Positions 1 to 19,048 of a stretch of 35,443 bases of DNA are shown here, one piece after another. Numbering within the stretch: the first letter of the stretch is position 1; the number at the start of each line of letters is the position of its first letter. The stretch is from a virus: positions 1-35,443 of the IMG/VR virus record IMGVR_UViG_3300049856_000199; one strand, 5' to 3'. Below the pieces are notes generated by a model, which made no database searches, had not been told where the DNA came from, and saw only the letters and a program-made list of their open reading frames with translations. The position numbers were made by a program, and so were the translations under genes.

Positions 1-2777
1 GTTGTGCCGTCGGTAATTAAATTCTCACAGAAGATCTTCACTATTCCAGCTCCGCCACCACCGCCACCGCCGCCGAATCCAGATAGAGCTCCGGTTCCGC
101 CACCACCGCCGCCACCAGCTCCGCCACCGCCGCCAGTGATCAAGTTATTAAGCCTGATAAGTGGGGTTTGAATTAAAGAAGCAAATTTTGAAAAGTTAGA
201 TGCAGCAGCTCCATTTCTAAGAGCTCCGCCTGCGCTTGATGATGTGCCTCCAGCTCTACCGACTCCGCCTGATCCACCATTTGATGGATTCTGCGCAGTT
301 GGCGCAGCAGCCTGTGCTCCAGCATTGACTGCACCAGCTCCGCCAGTGCTTCCATTTCCAGAGCCGCCGTTATATGTGCTAGTTATTCCAGAGCCAGCGG
401 CTCCGCCAGTTGTTGTTGTAGAAGCCGCACCGTTTGATGCATTCACATTGATTGCATTGGCACCCGCACCGGAAAGATCTAGAGTTTTGCAATAGATATC
501 ATATCCAGCAGAGTTCAATACACCCGCGCCATTGATTGCTAGTGTCGAATAATATGCATTTTGAGTTAGCGTTGTTGTTCCAGTAATTGTCACGCTTCCA
601 AGACTTGCATCTCCGAAGAAAGAAGCTTCTGGCGTTCCCCATGATGCGGCTCCAGATAAAACCTTCAGAGCTTGGCCTGTTGATCCGATTCCAAGTCTAG
701 AGGCAATCCCTGCTGCTCTTGTAATCAGATCGCCGTTTGTAGTCATTGGGTCGTACATCATTGTGCCGCTAGCGTCTGGGATAGTTACAATCCTAGTCGC
801 CGTGTGAGCGGTTGAATCAAATGCGCATGCTGTTGTTGACGCTGAATTCTTCCAGGCAAGTCTACCAGTAGCTCCAGAATATATACGAATGCCGTTTGTT
901 GGTGCAGTTGGAGTTACTGCTTGCGGAGCATACTCAACAAACCCTTGTCCACCAGTATCAGTCAATGTCAAAGCACCAGACATTGAGTCACCTGTCTTGG
1001 TAACTTTGCCAGTCAACTGTGTTTGAACTGCTGATGTGGTTCCGCTAAGATAATTAAGCTCTGTTGTTGTAGTCGTAGCAGCAACTGGAAGCCCGTTTGT
1101 ATCTGAAGCCAGTGCTCTAGAGGCAGTGATTGCCGCTGCTTCAACAAGAGCACCACCACTTGAAACAATAGCTCTATTATTATTTAGAGCCGTTCCAGAA
1201 TTTGTTCCGCCCTTTGCAATAGGCAGTGTTGTAATGGTTGGTTCTTTTGCATTGATTTGAGTTTGAATTGCACTGGTTACACCACTGACAAAATTCAATT
1301 CTGCAGTTGTAGTCGTAGCAGCAACTGGAATTCCATTTGAATCACTTGCCAATGCGCGGCTTGCTGTAATGGCAGCAGCTTCAACAATAGCGCCACCGCT
1401 TGATTGCATGACTCTATTATTACTTAAGGAGTTTACAGAATTAGTGCCGCCCTTAGCAATTGGAAGCTGGGTGATTGTTGGCTCTTTAGAGTTGATCTGT
1501 GTTTGGATTGAAGAAGTAACCCCGTCAAGAAAATCAAACTCTGAGTTTGAAACAACTCCGGTTGAAATCTTTTGAGCATTGATTCCTGTAGCAACTTTAG
1601 CATCAGTGATCGATGCAGCGTTGACGTCAAAGGTGATAAGGTTTCCAGCATCATTATATGTTGGAGTGATCGTCGCTGTGGCATTTAATGCTGTGCCTAT
1701 TGCATCCTGTGCAGCTTCTGTGAAATCAGAAATAGTCGATGATAGTTGAGTTCCTGTGTGGTTTGCACGAGCCTTAACTTCAGCATCTTTTGCTGCAGAC
1801 AATGTTGGATTTGGATACGAGCCAGTTAGGTCACCACCTGCTGATCCGCCTGGAGTTGTTCCTGTGATTGTCACATTGGCAACAGTTGTGGCACGACCCT
1901 TGGCATCTACAGTTACTTGCGCAACTTGAGTCGCTGACCCGTATGTTCCTGCAGTAACGCCTGATGTTTGAAGCGTTGGATTTGGATAGTTTCCAGTCAA
2001 ATCCCCACCAGCAACACCCGTTGGCGAAGCGCCAAGGATAGTTGTGTTTGTAACGGCAGTGACTCGACCCTTAGAGTTTACAGTGAAGGCAGGAACTGTA
2101 TATGCGTCTCCATAGCTTCCAGCTGTTACGCCAGAAGTTGTGAGCTTTGCATCATCAATTGTGGTATTTCCAACAGTTGGATTTGGATATGTCCCTGTTA
2201 GATCACCGCCAGCGGCTCCGCTTGGAGGCAATGCGCTTGGCGTTCCGCTCAGATCACCATAAGCGCCGCTTGTAGCAACGGTCGCTAGTCCAGTAATTGT
2301 TGATGAGCTTTGAGTTCCAGTATGATTCGCACGAGCCAATAAATATGCATCTGATTGGTTCGCAGTTGCTCCACTTGCAACGCTATCGATCTTCGTCTTA
2401 TCAGATGGCGACATAAATCCAGCAACAGATCCTGTAGCAACTGGATGCTCAGAAGCACCGCCTGCGCCAACGTGAGTTTGTGGAGCCTTTTCAGAATCAA
2501 GTTCATTGATTGCCGACTGAACATTTGTAGCAACGATATTTCCAGCAGGAGTGTTTGTGATCTCAGATCCTGCATAGTCTCCCGCCGTGGCGACTACTGC
2601 TCCAGATCTTCCCTCGAAAGAAGACACACCAGAAGCAACGTCTTCAATAGAAACGATAGTTCCAGAAGAGTCTTTTCTCTTAAACTTCCCGTCAACCGAA
2701 TCGATATATGTGCTTGTCTCACCAGACGCAGGGTTTGTAACGCTTGCGCCTGTTTGATTTCCATAAGTAACTGACAT
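1..2777 (-). CDS. Fibre A / adhesin, N-terminal 925 codons (runs off left edge)
   Basis: Open from ATG at 2777 to the window edge with no stop codon. The start overlaps nothing but directly follows the stop of the 114-aa gene (TAA at 2780-2778). The N-terminus begins [13 protein letters not shown]. The middle carries three copies of a module containing GGDLTGxYPNPT, a motif frequent in phage fibres, then 80-residue repeats with [10 protein letters not shown] and ASRALASD, then a [17 protein letters not shown] segment. The last 130 or so residues are glycine-rich with runs of 5-8 Gly and a [10 protein letters not shown] segment. It probably continues into the glycine-rich fragment at 35151-35443. 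Role inferred: virion fibre or receptor-binding protein. Its place between capsid and neck genes also allows a head fibre. Confidence 0.85.
1060..1539 (-). repeat. Tandem 240-nt (80-aa) repeat inside fibre A
   Basis: Two adjacent units, about 1060-1299 and 1300-1539, encode near-identical 80-residue blocks with [45 protein letters not shown] and [11 protein letters not shown] stretch reading GTAGTCGTAGCAGCAACTGG is identical at the same place in both. A third, partial unit follows toward 1540-1580. The DNA has diverged at many third positions, so this is an old expansion and not an assembly artefact. Trimeric fibre shafts commonly grow by such duplications. Confidence 0.75.
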
Positions 2778-3122: not shown

Positions 3123-3406
3123 ATCAGCTCACCGCCTGTAAGGTCTGGATCTGGTGCTGATAGGTAATAAACTTTGATTGTCTTAAGCACAGCCCCAGCA
3201 ATTCCGCCGGTCCGATATTCAATAGTCTCTGTATTCCCAGCAACTGAACGCGTGAAAGCATCAGTACCTGCTGGAGGAGCGAAGGGACCTGGAGAAGCTG
3301 TAGCTGTAATGTTTCCTGTGATTTCAACTGCCGCACCATCTGTGCGGGTCGGAGACTGGACAAACTTGTCGAGCTCCCTTTGCCGTATGTCATCCTTCAT
3401 CGCCAT
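3119..3406 (-). CDS. 95-aa hypothetical protein in head/fibre module
   Basis: The ATG at 3406 has AAAGAGG seven bases upstream, and a second in-frame ATG lies two codons later. The gene overlaps the 3390 stop upstream and the next gene by four bases. The protein starts MAMKDDIRQRELDKF (charged, helical). It then becomes Thr/Gly/Pro-rich with beta character (EITGNITATASPGPF, ETIEYRTGG, KTIKVYYLSAPDP). No family is recognised. The shape suggests a small structural protein with a helical anchor and beta domain, translated together with the 114-aa protein and fibre A. No signal peptide or membrane segment. Confidence 0.7.
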   Translation of the reverse strand: MAMKDDIRQRELDKFVQSPTRTDGAAVEITGNITATASPGPFAPPAGTDAFTRSVAGNTETIEYRTGGIAGAVLKTIKVYYLSAPDPDLTGGELI

Positions 3407-3557
3407 TTAAGACCTCTTTAGGATTAGTAGGTGCAAAGTCTTGATCTTGAAGATCGTCATAGAACCAGGCAATCCAAACTGCAGATCCGTTTAAGATCGT
3501 TGGTTGGATATCAAAATAGCGAACAAATGCACCAAGTCTAGCATTAGTCTTGAGCAT
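3390..3557 (-). CDS. 55-aa protein downstream of the capsid gene
   Basis: I chose the ATG at 3557 (MLKTNARLGAFVRYFD) over an upstream in-frame TTG at 3626. The opening resembles a small protein often found right after capsid genes in phages (MxKTNxRLxxFVRYDG type), and GGAGG lies just upstream. Spacing from that ribosome site to the ATG is only three bases. The site is buried in a strong hairpin (3561-3588), so translation may be conditional. The protein is acidic at the C-terminus (DDLQDQDFAPTNPKEVLNGDEG). Function unknown. A minor capsid or decoration role is a guess from position. Confidence 0.6.
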   Translation of the reverse strand: MLKTNARLGAFVRYFDIQPTILNGSAVWIAWFYDDLQDQDFAPTNPKEVLNGDEG

Positions 3558-3560
3558 ATT

Positions 3561-3588
3561 CCTCCGAAGCCCTTGCGGGCTCCGAGAG
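3561..3588 (-). promoter_or_regulatory. GNRA-capped RNA hairpin covering a ribosome-binding site
   Basis: On the minus-strand transcript a nine-pair stem (arms at 3577-3585 and 3564-3572) closes a GCAA tetraloop. After one mismatch, two further pairs extend it. Two of the nine pairs are G-U pairs that work only in minus-strand RNA. The 3' arm contains the GGAGG in front of the ATG at 3557, so the fold would hide that site. It lies between the capsid stop (3645) and the next gene. It has no U-run, so it is not a classical terminator. A role in lowering downstream translation or protecting the capsid mRNA 3' end is inferred. Confidence 0.65.
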
Positions 3589-3644
3589 GTTATAAAGTTA
3601 GGTATCTGCCTTGGATTGGCATCCAATTAGGACCCCTATCTCAA

Positions 3645-4487
3645 TTAGATTTTTGTGATCAATGGAGAAGCAGGAGCAGTAGTTCCCAATTCACCTTGTT
3701 GTAGAGCAACAACACCGAACTTCTGGTCAACTGCAATACGTTTTGCAGAAGAACCGAATTCGTTCGCGCCTTGCTCAGACATCTGAGGTTGTTTTTGGAA
3801 AGCGTATCCGATACCAGATTTCGCCCACATGTATGCCTTACCAGAAGTAACGCCTGAGTGAACAAGAACTGGAACGCCATACACTTTACCGATAACACCA
3901 GAAGGGATGTTAGATGAACCGTATGCATCACCGCGTGTGAACTCATCGATTTTCATCATAACTTTCTCTTCGTCAGGGTGAACCAACAAAGCCAACTCAT
4001 CAAGCATCGCTTCGTTCTTCAAGAGATATGCACGCATATCCAAGATAAGGTCACGAGTGATTGGAGCAGAACCAACGTCCAAACCAGCAGATGCTTCAAG
4101 CTTAGCGATAAGCTGAGAATCTACATAGCGACCATGAGCTGCAGCTGCACGCTTCATGTATTCAATTTGAACATCAAGAGACGATTCAATTTCGTCAGCA
4201 GAATCTACGATCCATGCAACATATGCATTGAAATCAAGATTCATGGTGTCTTTGCTAGCAGTCAAAACAGAAGCATCACCTTGAGCGGCAGATGCACGGT
4301 TCACAACTGTGAAAGAAGAAAGCTTCGGAATACCGATAGACTTCATTCCTTTTCCTGCGAAAGACGAGAAGTCAGTTGCGTATGGCAAAAGCTTCGCTGC
4401 GAATTTCAATTCTTTTTGAACCAAAGAGATGATCAGATCATTCTTTGTTGCAGATAACTGCGTGTTACCCGTTACTACATCAGCCAT
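3645..4487 (-). CDS. Major capsid protein (HK97-fold type)
   Basis: The 280-aa product begins MADVVTGNTQLSATKNDLI. The ATG at 4487 has AAAGGAG upstream, which decides it over a GTG two codons earlier. The length, the helical N-terminal part, the FNAYVAWIVDSADEIESSLDV segment (spine-helix-like), the central LLVHPDEEK and GVIGKVYGVPVLVHSG segments, and the C-terminal KRIAVDQKFGVVALQQG fit capsid proteins of siphoviruses. It is encoded directly after a scaffold-like gene, the standard order. It would form the icosahedral shell around the scaffold and portal. The N-terminus shows no obvious cleaved delta domain, consistent with a separate scaffold. Confidence 0.85.
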   Translation of the reverse strand: MADVVTGNTQLSATKNDLIISLVQKELKFAAKLLPYATDFSSFAGKGMKSIGIPKLSSFTVVNRASAAQGDASVLTASKDTMNLDFNAYVAWIVDSADEIESSLDVQIEYMKRAAAAHGRYVDSQLIAKLEASAGLDVGSAPITRDLILDMRAYLLKNEAMLDELALLVHPDEEKVMMKIDEFTRGDAYGSSNIPSGVIGKVYGVPVLVHSGVTSGKAYMWAKSGIGYAFQKQPQMSEQGANEFGSSAKRIAVDQKFGVVALQQGELGTTAPASPLITKI

Positions 4488-5744: not shown

Positions 5745-6302
5745 TTATCTGTTGTTTAAAGTGAATTCCAATAGCGAAGCCAAGTCAATCCCCTGCTTCT
5801 GCTTATCTTCTTCCTTCTTAGCCCTCAGCAAATCGTCCTTATACGCTGGAAGGATTTCTTTCTTAATGTCCTCAACACTAACGCCAAAGAACTGTCTCTT
5901 CGGACCATTGTCGATTGTTGGGTGACCTTCAAATCCAGAGATCAATCCAAATGCCCGAGGAGTTTCTTCTGCGGCAACTGCGATCTTCACAGTGCTGCCG
6001 TCTTCTTCAACGATATCAATCTTGCCGAGCATGTCTCCGCTCAAAGTGAGGTTCACGTTATTGCCTTTGCCTGCGGCTTTAAACTCAGCAGATGCCTTGT
6101 AGCTTGCAGAATACTTTGCAAAGGACTTATTGCTATTGTCTTCCCCGCCTTGAGTGCGCTTCACCATGTAGTCGATAATGTCTTGAGCTATCTCTCTGCG
6201 AAGTCGTGGCTTGTCAGATAGATCAACGCCAGTAAGCTTCTCCAAATCAATGGTCTGGCTTACTTCGTCAATAGTGATCTTAGTGCCCTTAATTCTGCCC
6301 AT
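5745..6302 (-). CDS. Virion morphogenesis-like protein, copy 1
   Basis: The ATG at 6302 lies 14 bases inside the portal gene's end, so the two are translationally coupled. The 185-aa product carries RREIAQDIIDYMVKRTQGG, then KSFAKYSASYKASAEF, NLTLSGDMLGKIDIVEEDG, a GFEGHP segment, RQFFGVSVED and a charged C-terminal tail (LLRAKKEEDKQKQG). The LTLSGDML and FFGVS signatures resemble those of gpG/gp10-type neck or tail-completion proteins (established for the family; assignment here is by eye). A role in closing or completing the portal vertex is inferred from its position directly after the portal gene. Confidence 0.6.
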   Translation of the reverse strand: MGRIKGTKITIDEVSQTIDLEKLTGVDLSDKPRLRREIAQDIIDYMVKRTQGGEDNSNKSFAKYSASYKASAEFKAAGKGNNVNLTLSGDMLGKIDIVEEDGSTVKIAVAAEETPRAFGLISGFEGHPTIDNGPKRQFFGVSVEDIKKEILPAYKDDLLRAKKEEDKQKQGIDLASLLEFTLNNR

Positions 6303-7758
6303 TATTATCCGGGATTTGTGGCCGTGGCATCAATGAAGGCATTGCTATTTCCTTATCAATCTCTGCCTTAACCTTGGCGGCTTCTTCTAGATCCAAGCCT
6401 CGATCAAAAGCGATAGCCTCAACCTGACTCATGATTCCAAGATCAGTCTTAAGCTGAATGACTTCGAGCTTTTCTTTCTCGCTCATCATCATCTCAGGTT
6501 TCTTGTATTGGATTTCAACATTAGCGCCTTCTGGGATAGCTCCGATGTTATACTTAAAAAGCTCTGTCCCCGAATAGGTGTTGATGTATGCAGCAATGAT
6601 TTTGAACAGCTTCTTCTCCGCGTATGCGAACAAATCCATGTCAGCTTTTGATGCCTCGAACTTATCGATCATCGCTAGCAATCGCTCAATGCCTGATGAA
6701 TAGCTTTGGCCTTGGGCTTTACCGCTCACGATATTTGGATCAACTCCCTGAGCCGATAAGAATGTCGATAGAAGCATCTCGATATAAGAGATCGACCCTG
6801 CAAGATCTGAATTAGGATTGGCAAAGCCGAACTCTGTTGTCGTTGGCTTATCTGGATTTACTGGAAGCTTTAGAACGTAGTTTGGACCAATCTGAATATT
6901 CTGAGGCATCAATGATTCTTCACCAATCAAATATGCTTGCGCGAATCCTTGCATACGAACGATCTGGCCTAAGTCTGACATTGCAGAATTGAACTGCACT
7001 GTGAAATCAGTAAGGCTCATGCTTGGTCTGACCCAGTACTCATAGTCTTTCTGATTTGAGATATCTACGAACGGCTTCACCTTGATTGGATTCGCCACGT
7101 CAGGCCCAGAGACGATATTGCCTTGAACGTCCATGATGAAATTGAACTCATCAGACCATAGAGCAAGCTTGGTTACGCCTTTGTAGTCTTCAGGGTCAGC
7201 GATCAGCTGATTGAACTCATCTTCGTTTTCATTCAATCGCGGAGCAAACATGCTGCGATCAAAGCCAGATACAATATATGCATCGGCTTGTTCTGGATCT
7301 AATGGAGAAGGAACAGCATCTAGGTGATGCCGCATCATTGGGCGAACGCACAGCTCGCCATTGATAAGAACAACTTGAAGATGCGTCTGGTCCTGAAGCT
7401 TATATGCCTCATTGGCCTTAGCCATCTTCACATTGATGTTCATGTATTCGTAAAGTTCTTCTAAGGCTTTGGCTTGCTCTTCGCTAACGCCAACGAATGT
7501 CCTGATCGGCGCTTCTTTGTAGATGCTAGCCTCTTGTTTGATCACTCGTTTGCAAAGGTTGATTGAGCTCACAATAGGCATCTCAGAAACTGATTCTTTA
7601 GACAGCATGCCCTCAAGGTATTCTTTCACATATGGATAGATGCGACCTTTGAAGATCTCGAACTCCTTAAGAGACTCCTTCTTTTGGTTCTGATTATTGA
7701 AGGCTTTGATCTCATCTAAGATCTGAATTCGCAGTTGTGGATTGCCGTAGTTAAGCAT
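6289..7758 (-). CDS. Portal protein
   Basis: The 489-aa product sits right after the large terminase, with ATG at 7758 and AAAGG upstream. It has a charged helical N-terminus, the SSINLCKRVIKQEASIYKEAP segment, beta-rich central parts, GSISYIEMLLSTFLSAQGVDPNIVSG (clip/stem region style) with GQSYSSGIERLLAMIDKFEASK, and a Pro/Asn-rich C-terminus. Length and order match portal proteins of siphoviruses (SPP1 gp6/DUF1073-like variety). Twelve copies should form the DNA-entry vertex and dock the terminase during packaging. The C-terminal MMMSEKEKLEVIQLKTDLGIMSQVEAI motif is common in portals. Confidence 0.85.
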   Translation of the reverse strand: MLNYGNPQLRIQILDEIKAFNNQNQKKESLKEFEIFKGRIYPYVKEYLEGMLSKESVSEMPIVSSINLCKRVIKQEASIYKEAPIRTFVGVSEEQAKALEELYEYMNINVKMAKANEAYKLQDQTHLQVVLINGELCVRPMMRHHLDAVPSPLDPEQADAYIVSGFDRSMFAPRLNENEDEFNQLIADPEDYKGVTKLALWSDEFNFIMDVQGNIVSGPDVANPIKVKPFVDISNQKDYEYWVRPSMSLTDFTVQFNSAMSDLGQIVRMQGFAQAYLIGEESLMPQNIQIGPNYVLKLPVNPDKPTTTEFGFANPNSDLAGSISYIEMLLSTFLSAQGVDPNIVSGKAQGQSYSSGIERLLAMIDKFEASKADMDLFAYAEKKLFKIIAAYINTYSGTELFKYNIGAIPEGANVEIQYKKPEMMMSEKEKLEVIQLKTDLGIMSQVEAIAFDRGLDLEEAAKVKAEIDKEIAMPSLMPRPQIPDNNGQN

Positions 7759-7760
7759 GG

Positions 7761-9119
7761 TTACCTTTTCTGTGAGCTGATCTGAGATCTAACTCTAGTT
7801 GTGTCGTAATAAATTCCGTACCCGAGCGCCGTTGTTACATGTTGATATGCCTTCGAGTCGTCCTCGACATAGTTTGCCCCAGGCTTGAGTGCTGTCAATC
7901 TCAAACCTTCATCAACAGTCTTCGCCTTTTTGTAAACAGTCATCCTGCACTGGCCAAGCTCGTTCATGCAGTAAGCGTTGAGCCTGTTATGCCTAGTCCT
8001 GATGGGTGGGTTTTCACGTGGAACTTCCATCTTAAACTTTAGTCCAGGAATGTTTGATAGATACTTCTTGATCACATCGTAGTCAGAAAGAATCGATCGT
8101 GTGTCTCTTGCCGCGCCTGTAGCATCCCCGTGAACCAATATCTCATATCCTTTTGTGAGGATTCCAGATTCAAACCATTCGTCCATGATGTCCGATGTTC
8201 TAGCGCCTTCAACAATCTTCTGATCAAATACATGGAAGTGATCATTGATGTATTGATAGGCGCATGAGCTCATAGGTTTTCCGAGAGCAATATTAAAGTC
8301 AAAACAGATAGCAACAGGATAATAAGGATTGATTCCATATTCAGTTTCCTTTTTGAATTGTTTGTCTGAATCGTATGAATGATAGACTCGTTCTTCTTCG
8401 ATCTCTATCCACTCGCCATATATCATGCGCCGAGCTTGCTTTGGATCTAAGTCTTGCTTCAGCTGTCTGATGTATTCTTCCGGCAGGAACTTATTGTCTT
8501 CAGTCCTTGATAGATACACATGTCTTGTTGGCCGAGCGTCAGTGAAGAAATACTTATATGCCCAATGACTTGGTGAAGATGGATTGGTCGCACACAGAAT
8601 AAACTTCTTCTTCACATGCGGAAGCCTTCCAACGCGCATTTTTATCTCGTCATATGCTGCCTTGTCTTTGTCGTCATTCTCTGTAAGTTCTTCGATAATG
8701 GCTGCTGAAATTTCAAGCGATCGCATCTTGAGGTATTTCTTATCTGCCCATGACCTGCTGATGATCTCACTGCCTGTAGCAAATCTGATCTTTGCAGTGT
8801 GATGGGTGACCCAATAATGAATCCCTTCTTTGAGATCTGATCCTTCAAGGTGCTCAAGGATCTTATTGAAGATAGTATCTTTGAGATCTGGCATAGCCTT
8901 GCGACCAAGCAGGATTCTAGCGTTGTTGTTTTCAATGCAATGTCTGACAGCAATATGGGCCATGAGAATTGATTTTGCTGATCCAACTGAGCCACTCAGA
9001 AGAACCTCATGAGTTCCTAGTTTGTAGTCGTATTTTTTATATATGTCTTTGATGACCTTGAATTGATAAGGAACATCCTTAGGATTGAACTCCGAGAAAT
9101 GCGGAGTTGAACTATTCAT
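7761..9119 (-). CDS. terL: Terminase large subunit (packaging ATPase/nuclease)
   Basis: I chose the ATG at 9119 (MNSSTPHFSEF), which overlaps the small terminase stop by eight bases. An upstream ATG at 9137 would give a longer overlap. The 452-aa protein has Walker A GSVGSAKS (43-50), Walker B IIEE (141-144) and the coupling motif CATN (176-179). The RNase H-like nuclease domain has acidic residues at FDFN (D274), HGDATG (D332) and VEDDSKAYQH (D420/D421). It hydrolyses ATP to pump DNA through the portal and cuts concatemers. All key residues look intact. The stop is three bases upstream of the portal ATG. Confidence 0.95.
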   Translation of the reverse strand: MNSSTPHFSEFNPKDVPYQFKVIKDIYKKYDYKLGTHEVLLSGSVGSAKSILMAHIAVRHCIENNNARILLGRKAMPDLKDTIFNKILEHLEGSDLKEGIHYWVTHHTAKIRFATGSEIISRSWADKKYLKMRSLEISAAIIEELTENDDKDKAAYDEIKMRVGRLPHVKKKFILCATNPSSPSHWAYKYFFTDARPTRHVYLSRTEDNKFLPEEYIRQLKQDLDPKQARRMIYGEWIEIEEERVYHSYDSDKQFKKETEYGINPYYPVAICFDFNIALGKPMSSCAYQYINDHFHVFDQKIVEGARTSDIMDEWFESGILTKGYEILVHGDATGAARDTRSILSDYDVIKKYLSNIPGLKFKMEVPRENPPIRTRHNRLNAYCMNELGQCRMTVYKKAKTVDEGLRLTALKPGANYVEDDSKAYQHVTTALGYGIYYDTTRVRSQISSQKR

Positions 9120-9531
9120 CGTCCATCGTATATGCAAGGGCTATTGGTTTTTGATTTGATTGAGCTGCATCTACCGTGATTCGATCAGTCCATCCAAATC
9201 TGTTCTTCATATTGAACATCCAAACAGATGAATTCAAAGACTGAGCCCCAACTCCAACGATTGATTTGCTGACGATATGATCGAGAGCAATCTTCTCCCA
9301 AAACATCCTGCAAGACTCTCTCGCTAGACGCTTGGCGGCGGAAAACTCTGGGTGTACATCGCACCATTCATTTAAGGTGTCTTTTGCCACTAGAATCTTT
9401 CCCGCGAAGGCCTCGAAAGAATATCCTTGAGACATGAAGTCTATAAGGTCTTGGCAATACTCTTTTTTGTATTTTGTGGGTCGTCCACCTGGATGTTTCT
9501 TCGGCGCCACAGGCACTAAAGCTTTTGACAT
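9112..9531 (-). CDS. terS: Terminase small subunit
   Basis: The start at 9531 (MSKALVPVAPKKHPGGRPTKYKKEY) is preferred over an upstream in-frame start because GGAAGG precedes it and the GGRPTKY opening is typical of small terminases. The 139-aa protein has a helix-turn-helix region (about 25-60: QDLIDFMSQGYSFEAFAGKI, then DTLNEWCDVHPEFS), then a helical core (AAKRLARESCRMFWEKIALDH). It should bind the packaging site and hand DNA to the large subunit. It is the first gene of the late minus-strand block, so a late promoter is expected upstream. I see no clear consensus promoter there. Confidence 0.85.
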   Translation of the reverse strand: MSKALVPVAPKKHPGGRPTKYKKEYCQDLIDFMSQGYSFEAFAGKILVAKDTLNEWCDVHPEFSAAKRLARESCRMFWEKIALDHIVSKSIVGVGAQSLNSSVWMFNMKNRFGWTDRITVDAAQSNQKPIALAYTMDDE

Positions 9532-9556
9532 AATCCTTCCACTGGAAATCAATGTC

Positions 9557-9573
9557 TGCCTCAACATGAGGCA
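9557..9573. repeat. 17-bp inverted repeat in the small terminase leader
   Basis: TGCCTCA and TGAGGCA arms (9557-9563 and 9567-9573) are perfect and separated by ACA, 26 bases upstream of the small terminase ATG. As RNA it is a seven-pair hairpin. As DNA it is a symmetric binding site. Its place next to the terminase genes makes a packaging recognition site or a late-gene operator possible. Neither is shown. A related arm (GCCTC/GAGGC) occurs in the hairpin at 9893-9927. Confidence 0.55.
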
Positions 9574-9698
9574 TGGCAGCATTATTCTTAAAAATAGACT
9601 CAAGGTCTAAAGATTAATGCCGATACATTCGATTAGGGCCAATTTATTTGCCTAAAGTCCAGCAAAAAGATGCCGATAAGATATGTATGGAGGACAAA

Positions 9699-10044: not shown

Positions 10045-10242
10045 TTAAGCGGCGTCGAGACCTAATGCCATCTCTTGCAACACCATTTGTACGCGCTCAA
10101 TTGCGGCTTCTCTGGATAGGTTCATCGCTATCGTCTGCCACTCAGGAGCTTCATCCAGGAACGAGTCTACATGGACCTGGACGGTGTACGTGTCACCAAA
10201 AGACAACACCTTCACTCGACTGCCAATATTCTGCTCGAACAT
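10045..10242 (-). CDS. 65-aa hypothetical protein
   Basis: The ATG at 10242 has GGAG nine bases upstream. A TTGACA promoter-like box lies 44 bases upstream. The product is MFEQNIGSRVKVLSFGDTYTVQVHVDSFLDEAPEWQTIAMN, a probable beta-rich half, followed by an amphipathic helix (SREAAIERVQMVLQEMALG). A plus-strand ORF covers the same bases but has no ribosome site, so I prefer this strand. It is a single-gene minus-strand unit next to the operator region. No family is recognised. The acidic surface and small size would suit a modulator protein, but this is a guess. Confidence 0.6.
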   Translation of the reverse strand: MFEQNIGSRVKVLSFGDTYTVQVHVDSFLDEAPEWQTIAMNLSREAAIERVQMVLQEMALGLDAA

Positions 10243-10291: not shown

Positions 10292-10316
10292 CAGGGTGCA
10301 AAAAGGCATCGCCAAG

Positions 10317-10334
10317 TGTTTACAAACGTAAACA
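10317..10334. promoter_or_regulatory. Operator site 2 (perfect 18-bp palindrome)
   Basis: TGTTTAC (10317-10323) and GTAAACA (10328-10334) flank AAAC. It shares GTTTACAAA with two other sites and overlaps the -35 box of the plus-strand promoter at 10319. It sits between the minus-strand 65-aa gene and the ORF-less RNA-like region. The overlap with a -35 element fits a repressor operator. The cognate protein was not identified. Confidence 0.65.
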
Positions 10335-10347
10335 AATGGCGAAGAAT
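10319..10347 (+). promoter_or_regulatory. Putative promoter of the ORF-less RNA region
   Basis: TTTACA (10319-10324) and AAGAAT (10342-10347) are separated by 17 bases: five and four matches to the sigma-70 consensus. The -35 is inside operator site 2. The start point would be near 10354, four bases before the first strong stem of the structured region. Confidence 0.45.
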
Positions 10348-10353
10348 TGGATT

Positions 10354-10840
10354 TGTGGAATCGAATTGAACTCAGGTTAATCCTAAAGATTCGATTCGGT
10401 CAACAAAATGGGGCCCTCCTGTTTAGGCCTACAGCATCATGAGCTAATCATAGCGATTCATGGTGTGGGAGTGCGAAACTCCTCGGTCGAAAGATCTAGC
10501 ATACCTGGCTTGAATGATTTCAGAGCCAGGATTACAGGGGTTGAAAGCGTCCGAAGACTCAGGGTCTAGGGGCACAAGACCAGACTAAGGAACTGACCTC
10601 AAAAGGCGAGATAACAATTAGCCTTCGAGCAAGAGTCCGATGCATAAGGACAGCAGTGAACCTTAACTGGCATATTTAAGAACGAGTTGAACTGGTAAAG
10701 GGCTTATCCAAAAAGCCTATACACACCAGCAACTACAGGGATGCATCCCAGAGAATAGATTCAACGGAGAATATCGAAGTCTCTTAATGGTTTCCTGCGT
10801 CCTCAGATCTTGGGTCTAGCGACTCGATTATGAGACCCTT
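10354..10840 (+). ncRNA. Candidate large structured non-coding RNA (unknown class)
   Basis: About 480 bases without an ORF of 60 codons on either strand. Stems read on the plus strand: 10358-10366 with 10389-10397 (nine pairs, inner AGG/CCT at 10374/10382). 10434-10446 with 10451-10466 (13 pairs including two G-U pairs, a three-base bulge, ATCA loop). 10468-10472 with 10478-10482 (GCGAA loop). 10504-10513 with 10520-10530 (ten pairs, one bulge). 10563-10567 with 10577-10581. 10603-10607 with 10621-10625. 10662-10666 with 10676-10680. 10692-10696 with 10725-10729 enclosing 10700-10705/10713-10718. 10812-10817 with 10833-10838. The palindrome GGGATGCATCCC lies at 10738. The octamer GGGTCTAG occurs at 10562 and 10812. 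The G-U pairs favour plus-strand RNA. It does not match tmRNA, 6S or tRNA hallmarks I know. The 3' end is uncertain because no U-run follows the last stem. It may run into the opposing gene. Confidence 0.5.
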
Positions 10841-11091
10841 GTGTTCCTATCGTAAACCTTCTGCAGCACCAGCATTTGTTTCTCGGTCAAGTAATCGTGA
10901 TCCATCCAAAACTTCTCGATACGTTCAAGCCAGACGATGTCACCGTAAGGCAGCCTATCGATAACTTTCTCTAGGGTAGCCATCTTTTTGTCGACTGCTC
11001 TTTGTATTGAGAATCTTCTCTCTGTGATTACTCCGACTGGAAACTGCATTTGAGAGTTGTCAGTTAAGGTCTCGTTCGATTTCTTTCCCAC
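10828..11091 (-). CDS. 87-aa protein with C-terminal LTEKQ motif, possible regulator
   Basis: GTG start at 11091 with AGGAG six bases upstream. The product has a polar N-terminus (GKKSNETLTDNSQMQFP), a central helix (QRAVDKKMATLEKVIDRLP), and ends VWLERIEKFWMDHDYLTEKQMLVLQKVYDRNTRVS. The 'xLTxKQxxxLxxxYxR' ending recurs in small phage and replication-associated proteins (recalled, not searched). It is transcribed divergently from the early operon across a 235-bp regulatory region and converges on the candidate RNA. Position suggests a regulator, but there is no clear helix-turn-helix. Confidence 0.65.
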   Translation of the reverse strand: MGKKSNETLTDNSQMQFPVGVITERRFSIQRAVDKKMATLEKVIDRLPYGDIVWLERIEKFWMDHDYLTEKQMLVLQKVYDRNTRVS

Positions 11092-11182
11092 GCTTACTCC
11101 TGTTGCTTAAGTTCTGCGCACCAATAAACTAAGCCTGGCGGTTTGCAATTTTTTTAGTGCCGAATTGTAAAGTTTTCACTGT

Positions 11183-11223
11183 GGTGACAATTTTTGGCAA
11201 AAAATGTGACGTTTTTTGTCACC
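11183..11223. promoter_or_regulatory. GTGAC/GTCAC operator cluster between divergent genes
   Basis: GGTGACA (11183-11189) and TGTCACC (11217-11223) form perfect outer arms. An extra GTGAC at 11206-11210 pairs with GTCAC at 11218-11222 around GTTTTTT. A small TTTTTG-g-CAAAAA symmetry lies at 11191-11203. TACAAT -10-like boxes flank the cluster on both sides: 11169-11164 on minus and 11234-11239 on plus. The minus one has TTGTCA 15 bases upstream. The plus one has no well-spaced -35. Likely operators for divergent control. The binding protein is unknown. Confidence 0.55.
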
Positions 11224-11263
11224 GTGTATTTATTACAATGTTGTTTGTCGGAGCATTGCGAAA

Positions 11264-11301
11264 TGTAAATGTGTTTACAAAACCTAATCACTGAATAATA
11301 T
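11264..11301 (+). promoter_or_regulatory. Operator site 3 and early promoter
   Basis: TGTAAA (11264-11269) and TTTACA (11274-11279) flank TGTG. The right half continues as GTTTACAAA (11273-11281), shared with sites 1 and 2. TTTACA doubles as a -35 box, with TAATAT (11296-11301) 16 bases on as the -10. Transcription would start near 11308, just before the ribosome site GGGAG (11316-11320) of the first early gene. Confidence 0.5.
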
Positions 11302-11326
11302 CCATTAACGCACTTGGGAGACTTGA

Positions 11327-11690: not shown

Positions 11691-11900
11691 ATGGAACAGG
11701 GATGGAAAGAATTGAATGATAGGGTAAAGCTGGACTCTTCTCTAGATCATTTTGTGGCACATATAAAAGCTCAGAATGCAGCACTTAGGCATAAAATAGA
11801 AACACAGGAAATGCATAACGGGGTTTTGTTAGCCAATCTTAAAGAATATTGGCAGCACTGTGAAGACCTATATTCAATAATCAATGAAGGTGATCTATGA
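11691..11900 (+). CDS. 69-aa coiled-coil early protein
   Basis: ATG at 11691 with AAAGGA seven bases upstream. Its stop overlaps the ERF start (ATGA), so the two are co-translated. The protein is helical throughout: WKELNDRVKLDSSLDHFVAHIKAQNAALRHKIETQEMHNGVLLANLKEYWQHCEDLYSIINEGDL, with a heptad pattern in the middle. No family recognised. Direct coupling to the annealing protein suggests a recombination accessory, but there is no motif evidence. A TATAGT box lies at 11656-11661 without a good -35. Confidence 0.7.
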   Translation: MEQGWKELNDRVKLDSSLDHFVAHIKAQNAALRHKIETQEMHNGVLLANLKEYWQHCEDLYSIINEGDL

Positions 11901-12571
11901 CTGAAACAATGGACAGATCAAAACTATTTGAGGCTCTTTCGCTAGCCCAAGGTCAGTTTAAAAAGGCAATCAAGGACGCTTCAAACCCGTTCTTCAAATC
12001 AAACTACGCAGACTTTGAATCAATCATAGATGCTGTTCGTCCAGCTCTTGCTGCCAATGGCTTATGTATCCTTCAGCCAACAACTGTCATAGGAGATAAG
12101 CTATACGTGCAGACAATTGTAGCACATAAGTCTGGTCAGATGATCGATGGCTTATATCCAGTTGTGGCAATGAAGCAAGATCCTCAAGCTTTGGGCTCCG
12201 CTATCACATATGCCAAACGATATGGAGCAGCTGCCATGCTGGGTGTGATTACATCTGAGGATGATGATGGCGAAGCTGCTATGATTAGGACACAGGTACC
12301 AGCTCCAGCGGTTAATAAGCCAATTGTGAATCATGCTCCAAAGCCAAACATGCAGATAACGAATCTTTCAGAAGCTCAGATCAAACGAGCCCACGCTATG
12401 GCTCATAAGCTTAACTGGAAGAAAGAAGAATTCGATGGCTTCATTCTTAAGATGACTCAGAAGAGTTCAATTAAAGACTTATCACCAACAGAATATCAGC
12501 AAGTGACCAATGAAATGGACATTCAAATAAAGCTAGCGCAGGCAAAGGCTGATAATGAAATTCCTTTCTAA
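11897..12571 (+). CDS. erf: ERF-family single-strand annealing protein
   Basis: The 224-aa product has the ERF superfamily core: NPFFKSNYADFESIIDAVRPALAANGL (about 30-56) and DPQALGSAITYAKRYGAAAMLGVITSEDDDG (about 94-124). It promotes annealing of complementary single strands in phage recombination and genome circularisation or repair (known for P22 Erf). A linker rich in Pro/Asn and a helical C-terminal part follow. The last residues are KADNEIPF, very like the acidic tip of bacterial SSB (DDDIPF), which recruits host repair enzymes. The start overlaps the previous stop by four bases. The end overlaps a tiny membrane ORF. Confidence 0.9.
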   Translation: MTETMDRSKLFEALSLAQGQFKKAIKDASNPFFKSNYADFESIIDAVRPALAANGLCILQPTTVIGDKLYVQTIVAHKSGQMIDGLYPVVAMKQDPQALGSAITYAKRYGAAAMLGVITSEDDDGEAAMIRTQVPAPAVNKPIVNHAPKPNMQITNLSEAQIKRAHAMAHKLNWKKEEFDGFILKMTQKSSIKDLSPTEYQQVTNEMDIQIKLAQAKADNEIPF

Positions 12572-14981: not shown

Positions 14982-15278
14982 ATGGCTAAAACAAAAAAGA
15001 AATATGTGATCGTTAGAACTTATTCAGCAGGGGTTTTTGCTGGATATCTTGAGAAGAAGAAAGGGCAAGAGGTTGTACTTTCTGAAGCAAGAAGGCTTTG
15101 GTATTGGAAGGGCGCTGCATCTCTTTCGCAACTTGCAGTTGACGGAGTTAAGTACCCAAATGAATGTAAATTTCCTGTAGCAGTTTCAAAAATTGAACTG
15201 ACTCAAGCAATTGAGATTTTGGATACGACGGCAGTGGCAAAAAAATGTATTGAAAAGGTTCCGGTATGGGTAGCGTAA
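14982..15278 (+). CDS. 98-aa DUF6948-like phage protein
   Basis: ATG at 14982 with AGGAGG five to ten bases upstream. The sequence KKYVIVRTYSAGVFAGYLEKKKGQEVVLSEARRLWYWKGAASLSQLAVDGV is a strongly conserved motif set that I recognise from many unrelated phages (DUF6948-type; name from memory). The C-terminal half has KFPVAVSKIELTQAIEILDTTAVAKKCIEKVPVWV. Function unknown. In other phages a short Gly/Asp/Ser/Tyr repeat protein often follows it, as here. It overlaps that gene by 13 bases. Confidence 0.8.
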   Translation: MAKTKKKYVIVRTYSAGVFAGYLEKKKGQEVVLSEARRLWYWKGAASLSQLAVDGVKYPNECKFPVAVSKIELTQAIEILDTTAVAKKCIEKVPVWVA

Positions 15279-15478
15279 AGGATGACGGCTCCGGCAACGG
15301 CTCCGGCTCCGGCAACGGCTCCGGCTCCGGCTACGGCTACGGCTACGGCGACGGCTACGGCTCCGGCTACGGCTACGGCGACGGCAACGGCAACGGCAAC
15401 GGCTACGGCTCCGGCTCCGGCTCCGGCAACGGCTCCGGCTCCGGCTCCGGCGACGGCTCCGGCTCCGGCGACGGCTAA
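15266..15478 (+). CDS. Gly-X dipeptide repeat protein, 70 aa
   Basis: ATG at 15266, overlapping the end of the DUF6948-like gene, with AAAAGG about nine bases upstream. After MGSVKD, residues 7-70 are 32 X-Gly dipeptides in which X is only Ser, Asn, Tyr or Asp. The chain must be disordered, hydrophilic and flexible. It may phase-separate or act as a linker. Every X codon is NNC and every Gly is GGC, so the DNA is a strict hexameric repeat. No enzymatic role is possible. The partner is probably the protein encoded just upstream. A second frame through the repeat is also open (Ala/Thr/Pro), but it has no convincing start. Confidence 0.75.
   Translation: MGSVKDDGSGNGSGSGNGSGSGYGYGYGDGYGSGYGYGDGNGNGNGYGSGSGSGNGSGSGSGDGSGSGDG
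15284..15475 (+). repeat. NNC-GGC hexanucleotide repeat, 32 units
   Basis: The 192-bp tract alternates GGC with TCC, AAC, TAC or GAC. Only the first two bases of the alternate codon vary, so slippage in steps of six bases would keep the frame while changing length. GC content is far above the neighbours. Strand asymmetry is marked, with pyrimidine at every third position. Confidence 0.9.
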
Positions 15479-17180: not shown

Positions 17181-17899
17181 TGGCAGAATGGCAGAGCTTT
17201 TGTCTTTGCCTGAATCTGCGGAACCTTTCCGTATCGTCCACCAATTTGCAAAACACTCCAATAATGTTTAAATGGAAGCGACAATGCCCCTTTGTTTTTA
17301 ATCTGTTTGTCCAAAATTATGAAGGCGCAGTCCATATTTATAAAAGGATCAAAGATCGTTTTTTTAGGATCATTTTTTGCCAGAACCTTGTCCTTTGACC
17401 AATCCATTTTGCATGATGGAGATACCAAAACATCCATATAACTGAGTTGAGTCAATCCTTCCGAAGCTACTGGCTGTTTTGTTATTGGATCTGGCTTTGG
17501 AAATGAACTTTGAGGCTCAACCATTCTTGAAGTTGGACTCCAACCAGACTCATAATATATGACCCATACAAGCAGCTCGGACCACATGTTCACCTTCTGA
17601 TCTTTGCTTAGCGAGTCAAACTTTGGACAAAATGCTTTGTTGTCTTTTGCAGAATTGAACGCATCAAAGTGCTTTACTGACAATTGGGACTTCAAAAACT
17701 GTCCCCATGCCTCACGCTCAGGATGCTTTGAATCTTTCCATCCTAGGTCAGCCTGGAGCGTTTTATCGATAGCCATTGTCGTAGTCGTAGCGGCAACAAT
17801 CTCAGGCTTTGCCATCAGGGTTTTCTCACACCCAGAAATCACCAGAACCATGGTTAGAACGAACACAACGATTGATAAAACGACGATAGGATATTTCAT
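17177..17899 (-). CDS. Lipoprotein with lysozyme/transglycosylase-like domain
   Basis: ATG at 17899 with GGAGG four bases upstream. The 240-aa protein has an uncleaved-looking hydrophobic start and a lipobox VISGC (Cys24), then a soluble domain. WVIYYESGWSPTSRMVEP (Glu117 as general acid) and ASEGLTQLSYMDV match the SLT/lysozyme-like fold (E-S-G-W ... G-L-x-Q-x). It likely cuts peptidoglycan and is lipid-anchored to the membrane. This is the last gene of the late block. It may be the endolysin, or an envelope enzyme acting on the host in infection. The C-terminus ends with Cys-His. Confidence 0.7.
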   Translation of the reverse strand: MKYPIVVLSIVVFVLTMVLVISGCEKTLMAKPEIVAATTTTMAIDKTLQADLGWKDSKHPEREAWGQFLKSQLSVKHFDAFNSAKDNKAFCPKFDSLSKDQKVNMWSELLVWVIYYESGWSPTSRMVEPQSSFPKPDPITKQPVASEGLTQLSYMDVLVSPSCKMDWSKDKVLAKNDPKKTIFDPFINMDCAFIILDKQIKNKGALSLPFKHYWSVLQIGGRYGKVPQIQAKTKALPFCH

Positions 17900-17930
17900 A
17901 AAGCCTCCAGCAAGAAGGCTAGCTATTGGC

Positions 17931-18245
17931 CTACCGCTTTGTCAGCTTAAAGTTTTCGATCATCACATGGGTGTAACCCTCGACTATGATCTCGATAATC
18001 TTTGGATCGATAACACCCACTAGGTATAAGCGCTGCATCAATGCATGGCCCATCTCATGGATCAGGGTTTCTAGAAGCTCAGGCTTTGTTTGTGAATCAT
18101 CAAGGTAGATTGTCCATGTGGCAGGATCAAAGCATCCGAATACTGGCTGATCTGTGACAAGATCCTTTGCTAGATATACAGGCACTATTTTGCCGAATAT
18201 ATTGACTGGTTTTTTTGGCTTTGATTTCTTCCGTGGCTTCTTCAA
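17931..18245 (-). CDS. Small HExxH zinc metallopeptidase-like protein
   Basis: TTG start at 18245 with GGAGG four bases upstream. The 104-aa protein begins with a Lys/Pro-rich tail (MKKPRKKSKPKKP), then a beta domain and LIHEMGHALMQRLYLVG (His63, Glu64, His67). IIEIIVEGYTHVM, whose Glu89 could be the third zinc ligand, follows. This is the minimal zincin fold (ImmA/SprT-like small phage peptidases). The substrate is unknown: repressor cleavage, virion maturation or host factor degradation are all possible. It lies at the end of the late block beside the phosphoesterase and the lysozyme-like lipoprotein. Confidence 0.7.
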   Translation of the reverse strand: MKKPRKKSKPKKPVNIFGKIVPVYLAKDLVTDQPVFGCFDPATWTIYLDDSQTKPELLETLIHEMGHALMQRLYLVGVIDPKIIEIIVEGYTHVMIENFKLTKR

Positions 18246-18337
18246 GAGACCTCCAAAAAAAAGAGGCCCATTGTTGTAGCAGTCGAAATACTCGCGTGGG
18301 ATCGTTGGCTACAGGTCCAGGCCATGATTAGGATAGC

Positions 18338-19048
18338 TTAAACAATCTTCCCAATCCATCTTCCTTCGCGGTCCAAGACCATGGGAAGAAGTCTAGGTTG
18401 GCCGTCAAGAATCACACCACACCCAATTATCTGTTTGTCACCGGTGGTTTTGGCATATGCAAAGGCAAGTGATCGGCGCTCAATAAGGCATCCGACAGTC
18501 ATTCCCCAGTATAGGTCTAGTTCGTTGGCCCAGTATCTGATTTCAAACTTGCTGTGGAAATGGCCCTGTACGAAGGACATTGAAACATTCTTTGAGCTCT
18601 TCAAAGCATCGCTAGATCTTCCATGACAGAAGTAAACAAGCTTTCCATTGCTGCACTTTAATACCAAATGGTCATGCCATTTCCATCCGCGAGGAGCTTG
18701 TATAATTTCTCGATATGACTTGATAAGTGTTGATGGAATTCCATTAGCAGATGCCTGTCTATAAACAAGCGAACCATGGTTTGAATCAACAAGATCCATC
18801 TCTGGAAACATTTTATATATTGGCTGAAGTCTTCTTATTGATATTGCAAGTTCTGAAGATGGGCTTAGCAGGTCAGGACTTTTTGGGTGAAAGCTCATCG
18901 AATTCCAGTCAACTTCGTCCCCAATGTTCACAATCTTGTCTGGCTTGAACTTTGATTTGCACGCACGCAGGAATGCGACAATGTCCGGGTGATTATATGG
19001 GAAATGCTGGTCACTTATTACTAAGATAGACTTGTAGCCTTTTGCCAT
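18338..19048 (-). CDS. Calcineurin-like metallophosphoesterase
   Basis: The 236-aa product has all metal-binding blocks in order: SDQHFPY (D13, H15), NIGDEVDWN (D44), SNHGS (N90, H91), YFCHGRS (H142) and GHFHSKF (162-165). It should be a two-metal phosphodiesterase or phosphatase. In phages such enzymes have nuclease, protein phosphatase or cyclic-nucleotide-degrading roles, and the substrate cannot be chosen from sequence. A role in breaking host second-messenger defence is possible but speculative. The ribosome site upstream of ATG 19048 is weak. An inverted repeat lies 13 bases upstream. Confidence 0.8.
   Translation of the reverse strand: MAKGYKSILVISDQHFPYNHPDIVAFLRACKSKFKPDKIVNIGDEVDWNSMSFHPKSPDLLSPSSELAISIRRLQPIYKMFPEMDLVDSNHGSLVYRQASANGIPSTLIKSYREIIQAPRGWKWHDHLVLKCSNGKLVYFCHGRSSDALKSSKNVSMSFVQGHFHSKFEIRYWANELDLYWGMTVGCLIERRSLAFAYAKTTGDKQIIGCGVILDGQPRLLPMVLDREGRWIGKIV

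Follow-up and report, generated by a model that had tools for sequence, protein, structure and literature searches.

In a record of an uncultured phage (IMG/VR record IMGVR_UViG_3300049856_000199) we describe a candidate for a large structured noncoding RNA that is probably new among the large RNAs of phages; the whole 35,443-nt stretch of DNA analysed here is referred to as the window. The RNA region, about 490 nt at 10354–10843, lies where the leftward genes of the phage give way to rightward genes. Our computations establish directly that this region is noncoding and that its excess of folding is strand-specific, and they reveal, in a comparable place in sister phages, an RNA class whose helices covary and which is separate from the window RNA. 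Our preferred reading, to which we assign a probability of roughly 0.6, is that the window RNA is a standalone structured noncoding RNA gene with its own promoter that acts in trans during infection.

A noncoding stretch with a strand-specific fold

No gene-sized ORF is present in 10354–10843 on either strand, as an earlier note on this DNA had claimed for about 480 of these bases: the longest open run is 60 codons on the plus strand and 46 on the minus strand, stop codons number 6–10 per frame, and the sole ORF listed for the stretch encodes 53 aa. Compared with dinucleotide shuffles, the stretch folds with a z of −4.2 to −4.4 (−4.38) on the plus strand and of −1.89 on the minus strand, which answers the doubt, raised in the same note, that its stems might be no more stable than shuffled sequence. 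The excess over shuffles amounts to −29.3 kcal/mol and ranks second of 142 among 490-nt segments taken genome-wide from both strands. The first rank falls to a segment at 3431 on the minus strand (z −6.3); in that area of strongest fold excess (3390–3650, minus strand), an 8-pair hairpin adjoins the Shine-Dalgarno sequence of a small post-capsid gene.

The 5' part of the stretch, an array of hairpins, is stable on both strands (z −4.17 on plus, −3.43 on minus), as local palindromes are, and much of its stability is palindromic; the fold of the 3' part is strand-specific (z −3.72 on plus, −0.97 on minus). In related loci, 211 ORF-free stretches were frequently more stable than their shuffles, and z alone is therefore not proof for the window RNA. 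The high-z gaps of other loci, among them L161, L096 and L153, have the look of repeat or palindrome arrays and not of a single RNA class. Another locus (L142) holds an AT-rich, ORF-free stretch of 889 nt (6143–7031; z −13 on plus, −7 on minus) that has no Rfam match.

Domains and long-range helices

Pairing probabilities, taken from the partition function of 10354–10843, resolve the following elements.

10354..10843 (+): the whole candidate noncoding RNA, large and structured, about 490 nt (fold excess, pairing, no ORF)
10355..10532 (+): 5' domain of serial hairpins (pairing probabilities and fold z)
10360-10400, 10411-10430, 10434-10466 and 10467-10483 (+): hairpins of the 5' domain, the last with loop GCGAA
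10485-10496 and 10504-10530 (+): further hairpins of the 5' domain, the former with the GNRA loop GAAA
10533..10843 (+): 3' domain, 311 nt, closed by two long-range helices
10533-10542/10834-10843 (+): closing helix of the 3' domain, 10 pairs
10555-10567/10805-10817 (+): closing helix of the 3' domain, 13 pairs
10603-10625, 10635-10651, 10685-10734 and 10750-10784 (+): internal hairpins of the 3' domain

The serial stem-loops reported earlier are real as local stems, most of them with p > 0.9. The stem at 10434–10466 forms 9 + 4 pairs (p 0.94–0.98) and includes G-U pairs, as stated, and that at 10504–10530 is as described, with 7 + 4 pairs (p 0.87–0.96); the first stem, put at nine pairs, is present at 10360–10400 with 11. 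The two long-range helices that close the last 311 nt had been overlooked and are an addition of the present analysis. An uninterrupted 13-pair helix at such a distance was formed by none of 60 shuffles; its partners are the two copies of a direct repeat of 23 nt that is self-complementary and recurs at a distance of 250 nt, so that duplication of a DNA site could also explain the helix.

Promoter, 3' end and genome setting

10045..10242 (-): divergent small gene, 65 aa, Shine-Dalgarno AAGGAG, without family match
10309..10342: palindrome, operator-like, or the first hairpin if transcription begins upstream; overlaps the predicted -35
10319..10347 (+): promoter-like site TTTACA-17-AAGAAT (motif), weak consensus match
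10812..10837 (+): alternative 3' hairpin GGGTCT...AGACCC, −8.1 kcal/mol, weakly terminator-like, competing with the 13-pair helix
10828..11091 (-): convergent small gene, 87 aa, GTG start, AGGAG upstream, without family match
11897..12571 (+): ERF, the single-strand annealing protein encoded in the recombination operon, 3' of the RNA

The earlier note had placed a promoter under a perfect palindrome directly in front of the RNA. Both the site and the overlap were found, but the promoter is weak, matching at 9 of 12 positions (four such sites occur in the 2-kb region, where 3.1 are expected by chance), and the palindrome is larger than described, with 15-nt arms (10309–10323 and 10328–10342) that are 87% complementary. 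Its position over the −35 suggests that transcription is regulated. GTAAAC-type palindromes near 10.0, 10.3 and 11.3 kb were considered as a single operator family and rejected, their spacing and orientation being unlike. The 3' end of the RNA lacks any clear T-run terminator.

Packaging and head genes (3.6–9.6 kb, with the terminase at 7761–9603) run leftward on one side of the RNA, and on the other lies a rightward block (11.3–17.2 kb) whose genes include ERF and a RusA-like resolvase. The convergent gene and the RNA lie tail to tail, overlapping by 16 nt at their 3' ends, and a further intergenic stretch (11092–11326) precedes the rightward operon. Cumulative GC skew turns near the RNA region, and no tRNA genes were found in the 35 kb of the window. 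At 15266–15478 (plus strand) a 70-aa ORF consists almost purely of Gly-X repeats (GSGNGSGYGYGDG...); GC around it is 0.69, compared with 0.44 for the genome.

Searches for known families and homologues

Rfam 15 gave no match in the window at the gathering threshold and, when filters were relaxed and E values up to 5 admitted, nothing but a spurious miRNA match outside the RNA region; gathering and lax scans over the window and related loci returned nothing except two tRNAs in one locus (L009). Membership of GOLLD, ROOL, HEARO or OLE is ruled out by the lack of a match to their covariance models. Relatives of the window RNA were sought with BLASTN, as the earlier note had advised, and no homologue was found among phage and plasmid records; nothing was found either when related loci and whole records (about 240 loci) were searched with blastn, nhmmer and BLAST. 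A terminase profile scan of IMG/VR yielded 80 loci, with TerL identities of at most 62%, and by blastn and nhmmer the window RNA is absent from them. Megablast of the first 25 kb of the window against phage records identified no relative, a terminase profile search of GTDB contigs found no prophage relative, and in cultured phages of Pelagibacter and Methylophilales that carry a related phosphoesterase gene, the annotated stretches examined show no such 490-nt gap. Loop-anchored IUPAC scans of IMG/VR, and one of GTDB, produced matches that were rejected as coding sequence or as unlike the RNA outside the pattern. What had been proposed as a large structured noncoding RNA in a regulatory region is supported in part by the strand-specific fold, the absence of an ORF, the slot of its own and the absence of an Rfam family; that it represents a new class, as had also been suggested, is likely but unproven.

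A class of covarying RNAs in sister phages

Four nearer relatives (TerL 58–60% identical) each hold an ORF-free structured stretch of about 490 nt, with sister RNA copies as follows.

L108, 675-1160 (-)
L199, 2624-3115 (+), L199 belonging to the contig behind L113
L112, 1-257 (-)
L102, 5085-5560 (-)

Pairwise alignment identity among the L107, L199 and L112 RNAs is 73–91%, and their 5'-domain covariance model finds L102 (E 1e-6 in 1.1 kb) where a match is expected; judged by these alignments, L107/L108, L199, L112 and L102 are one RNA class. Double-sided changes occur at 18 of 76 pairs in a MAFFT alignment of three members that was not fitted to the covariance model. With L102 added, they occur at 37 of the 76, compared with 13.8 in shuffles (0 of 500 reached 37), in a four-member alignment that was so fitted and in which 94% of cells pair. 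Among the strongly conserved unpaired stretches are CCTGCCGGYGGC, GAAGGGG and ATAAGCCTGCCAATG. The sister class, a new covarying class of about 490 nt, has no match in Rfam or in cultured phages.

The window RNA and the sister class compared

By nhmmer, the window RNA has no similarity to the sister class. Sequence-plus-structure alignment of the two scored at or below shuffles, whereas L102 with L199 scored well above. The 5'-domain covariance models R1 and R3, run with filters off, gave a best E of 0.66 in 1.5 kb near the window RNA, at the palindrome, and of 1.3 in the whole window, away from the RNA; the 3'-domain model R2 made real matches only to L199 and L108 and missed L102 too, and is hence a weak test. 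Detectable membership of the window RNA in the sister class is rejected by the sequence, profile and covariance tests. Because every direct test was negative, what we claim is, as far as such comparisons tell, an analogy in place and size and not homology; since L102 itself is barely detectable, very distant homology is possible.

In L199, L107 and L102 the RNA is read in the direction of a recombination operon, made up of recT or ERF and then an SSB-like gene, with a small leftward gene behind it. The convergent leftward gene 3' of the RNA is that of an M15 peptidase in L199 and that of an HNH nuclease, followed by an M15 gene, in L107; in L102 the RNA runs into a rightward 122-aa ORF with a GGAGG site, followed by a leftward M15 gene. 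The window presents the same order (divergent gene 10045–10242, RNA, convergent gene 10828–11091, rightward operon), and the genes flanking its RNA are not homologous to those flanking the sister RNAs. GTAAAC stands upstream of AAGAAT at N8 in the window, L199 and L112 and at N7 in L107, and in 2.6 Mb GTAAAC-N7/8-AAGAAT occurs only upstream of the L107, L112, L199 and window RNAs, a pattern noticed post hoc for which we roughly estimate chance occurrence at one in ten. A small HNH nuclease gene (L175 8432–8887, minus strand) abuts the 3' end of a sister RNA and is missing from the L199 slot; a link to mobility is possible for it.

The slot is filled not by the RNA but by a 283-aa ORF without Pfam match (17752–18603, plus strand) in L198, which is a sister of L199; slot content has therefore been swapped. 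Tentatively, and with more doubt than confidence, we suggest that this clade has, next to the recombination operon, a dedicated accessory slot where protein genes and large RNAs of unrelated kinds interchange, its occupants being the window RNA, the L107/L199/L102 class and perhaps a region of about 1 kb in L159. If true, such swapping would resemble that of anti-defence or host-takeover genes, and large RNAs would be a recurrent accessory class of phages. The L159 region (600–1620, plus strand) is gene-free, with an HTH repressor on one side and recT on the other; 1000–1620 folds 4.5 SD better than shuffles on the plus strand and 0.9 SD better on the minus strand, which makes it a candidate for another giant structured RNA or a leader.

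Interpretation and alternative explanations

We infer how the window RNA would be transcribed, where it would end and that it would act in trans with some partner. Transcription would proceed rightward from its own promoter, between the leftward packaging and structural genes and the rightward recombination operon, and a regulator bound at the palindrome over the −35 would switch the promoter on or off. The transcript would fold into the 5' hairpin array and a 3' domain shut by the long-range helices, and transcription would end on running into the convergent gene 10828–11091. In the course of infection the compact RNA or RNP might then act in trans, for instance through binding of a host protein or through assembly of the kind that large phage RNAs undergo; by analogy with other such RNAs, a trans-acting RNA or RNP appears to be the most likely role.

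Lying upstream of the recombination operon and on the same strand, the RNA might instead be a cis-acting leader, the 5' part of a rightward early transcript that brings about put-like antitermination into the ERF operon. The put RNA of HK022 is a precedent for such a mechanism (PMC9378689). The structured region of L159 continues directly into recT, and the L102 RNA runs into a gene with a GGAGG site. However, in the window, as in L107 and L199, a leftward gene separates the RNA from the operon, the operon has a separate intergenic stretch ahead of it, and put elements are far shorter than the window RNA. An RNA that meets the next gene tail to tail would therefore not be an ordinary 5' leader, and a free-standing noncoding RNA is favoured both by the convergent gene and by the intergenic slot that the RNA has to itself; we consider a leader unlikely.

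The near-perfect palindrome, the self-complementary direct repeat, the stability of the 5' part on both strands and the nearby turn in GC skew are also what a DNA-level element (a replication origin, an operator cluster or a packaging site) that folds well as RNA merely incidentally might display. Yet the skew turn coincides with the gene-strand switch and needs no origin, no iteron array was found in the RNA region, and the strand specificity of the 3' domain (−3.7 versus −1.0) is unlike palindromic DNA, all of which makes such an element quite improbable. That the stretch is a decayed gene or chance intergenic structure without function would fit with its lack of homologues and with the fact that equally strong z values are not rare in phage intergenic DNA, but we regard this as very improbable given a long-range helix that outdoes every shuffle, the near-top rank of the whole-region excess and the presence, at a comparable position in relatives, of an RNA gene that covaries.

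To our knowledge, large phage noncoding RNAs are few, and we know of no established function for GOLLD or ROOL. Two apparently unrelated large RNAs at comparable positions in one clade, one of them strongly covarying, would provide a comparative handle. The context of the slot points to a role early in infection, and presence or absence of the RNA between sister phages makes that role testable.

Comparison with known systems

GOLLD, like the window RNA, is a large structured RNA of phages and prophages encoded by a free-standing gene. Many GOLLD members exceed 800 nt and GOLLD often lies by tRNA islands; its expression goes up in phage lysis (PMC12286853). The window RNA differs in length and in tRNA-island association, which is common and not obligatory in GOLLD and ROOL, and the window has neither an Rfam match nor a tRNA. 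ROOL is large, ornate, phage-borne and often found by tRNA islands (PMC12286853); the window RNA is also large and phage-borne, but again lacks the Rfam match and the tRNA. A homo-oligomeric cage made of RNA only is a further property of GOLLD and ROOL. HEARO, the omega RNA of IsrB–IscB, resembles the window RNA as a structured RNA of a few hundred nucleotides on mobile DNA. No IscB- or IsrB-like gene occurs among the window proteins scanned, and only in L107 does the sister RNA border on the gene of a small HNH protein, whose score is far under the IscB cut-off. The put RNA of HK022 is likewise structured and found where phage early transcription begins, but is much shorter and cis-acting, whereas the window RNA has a convergent gene in between. 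The sister class is unlike the window RNA in sequence, profile and covariance model, but resembles it in length, strand and slot and, in three of its four members, in the GTAAAC-N7/8-AAGAAT upstream.
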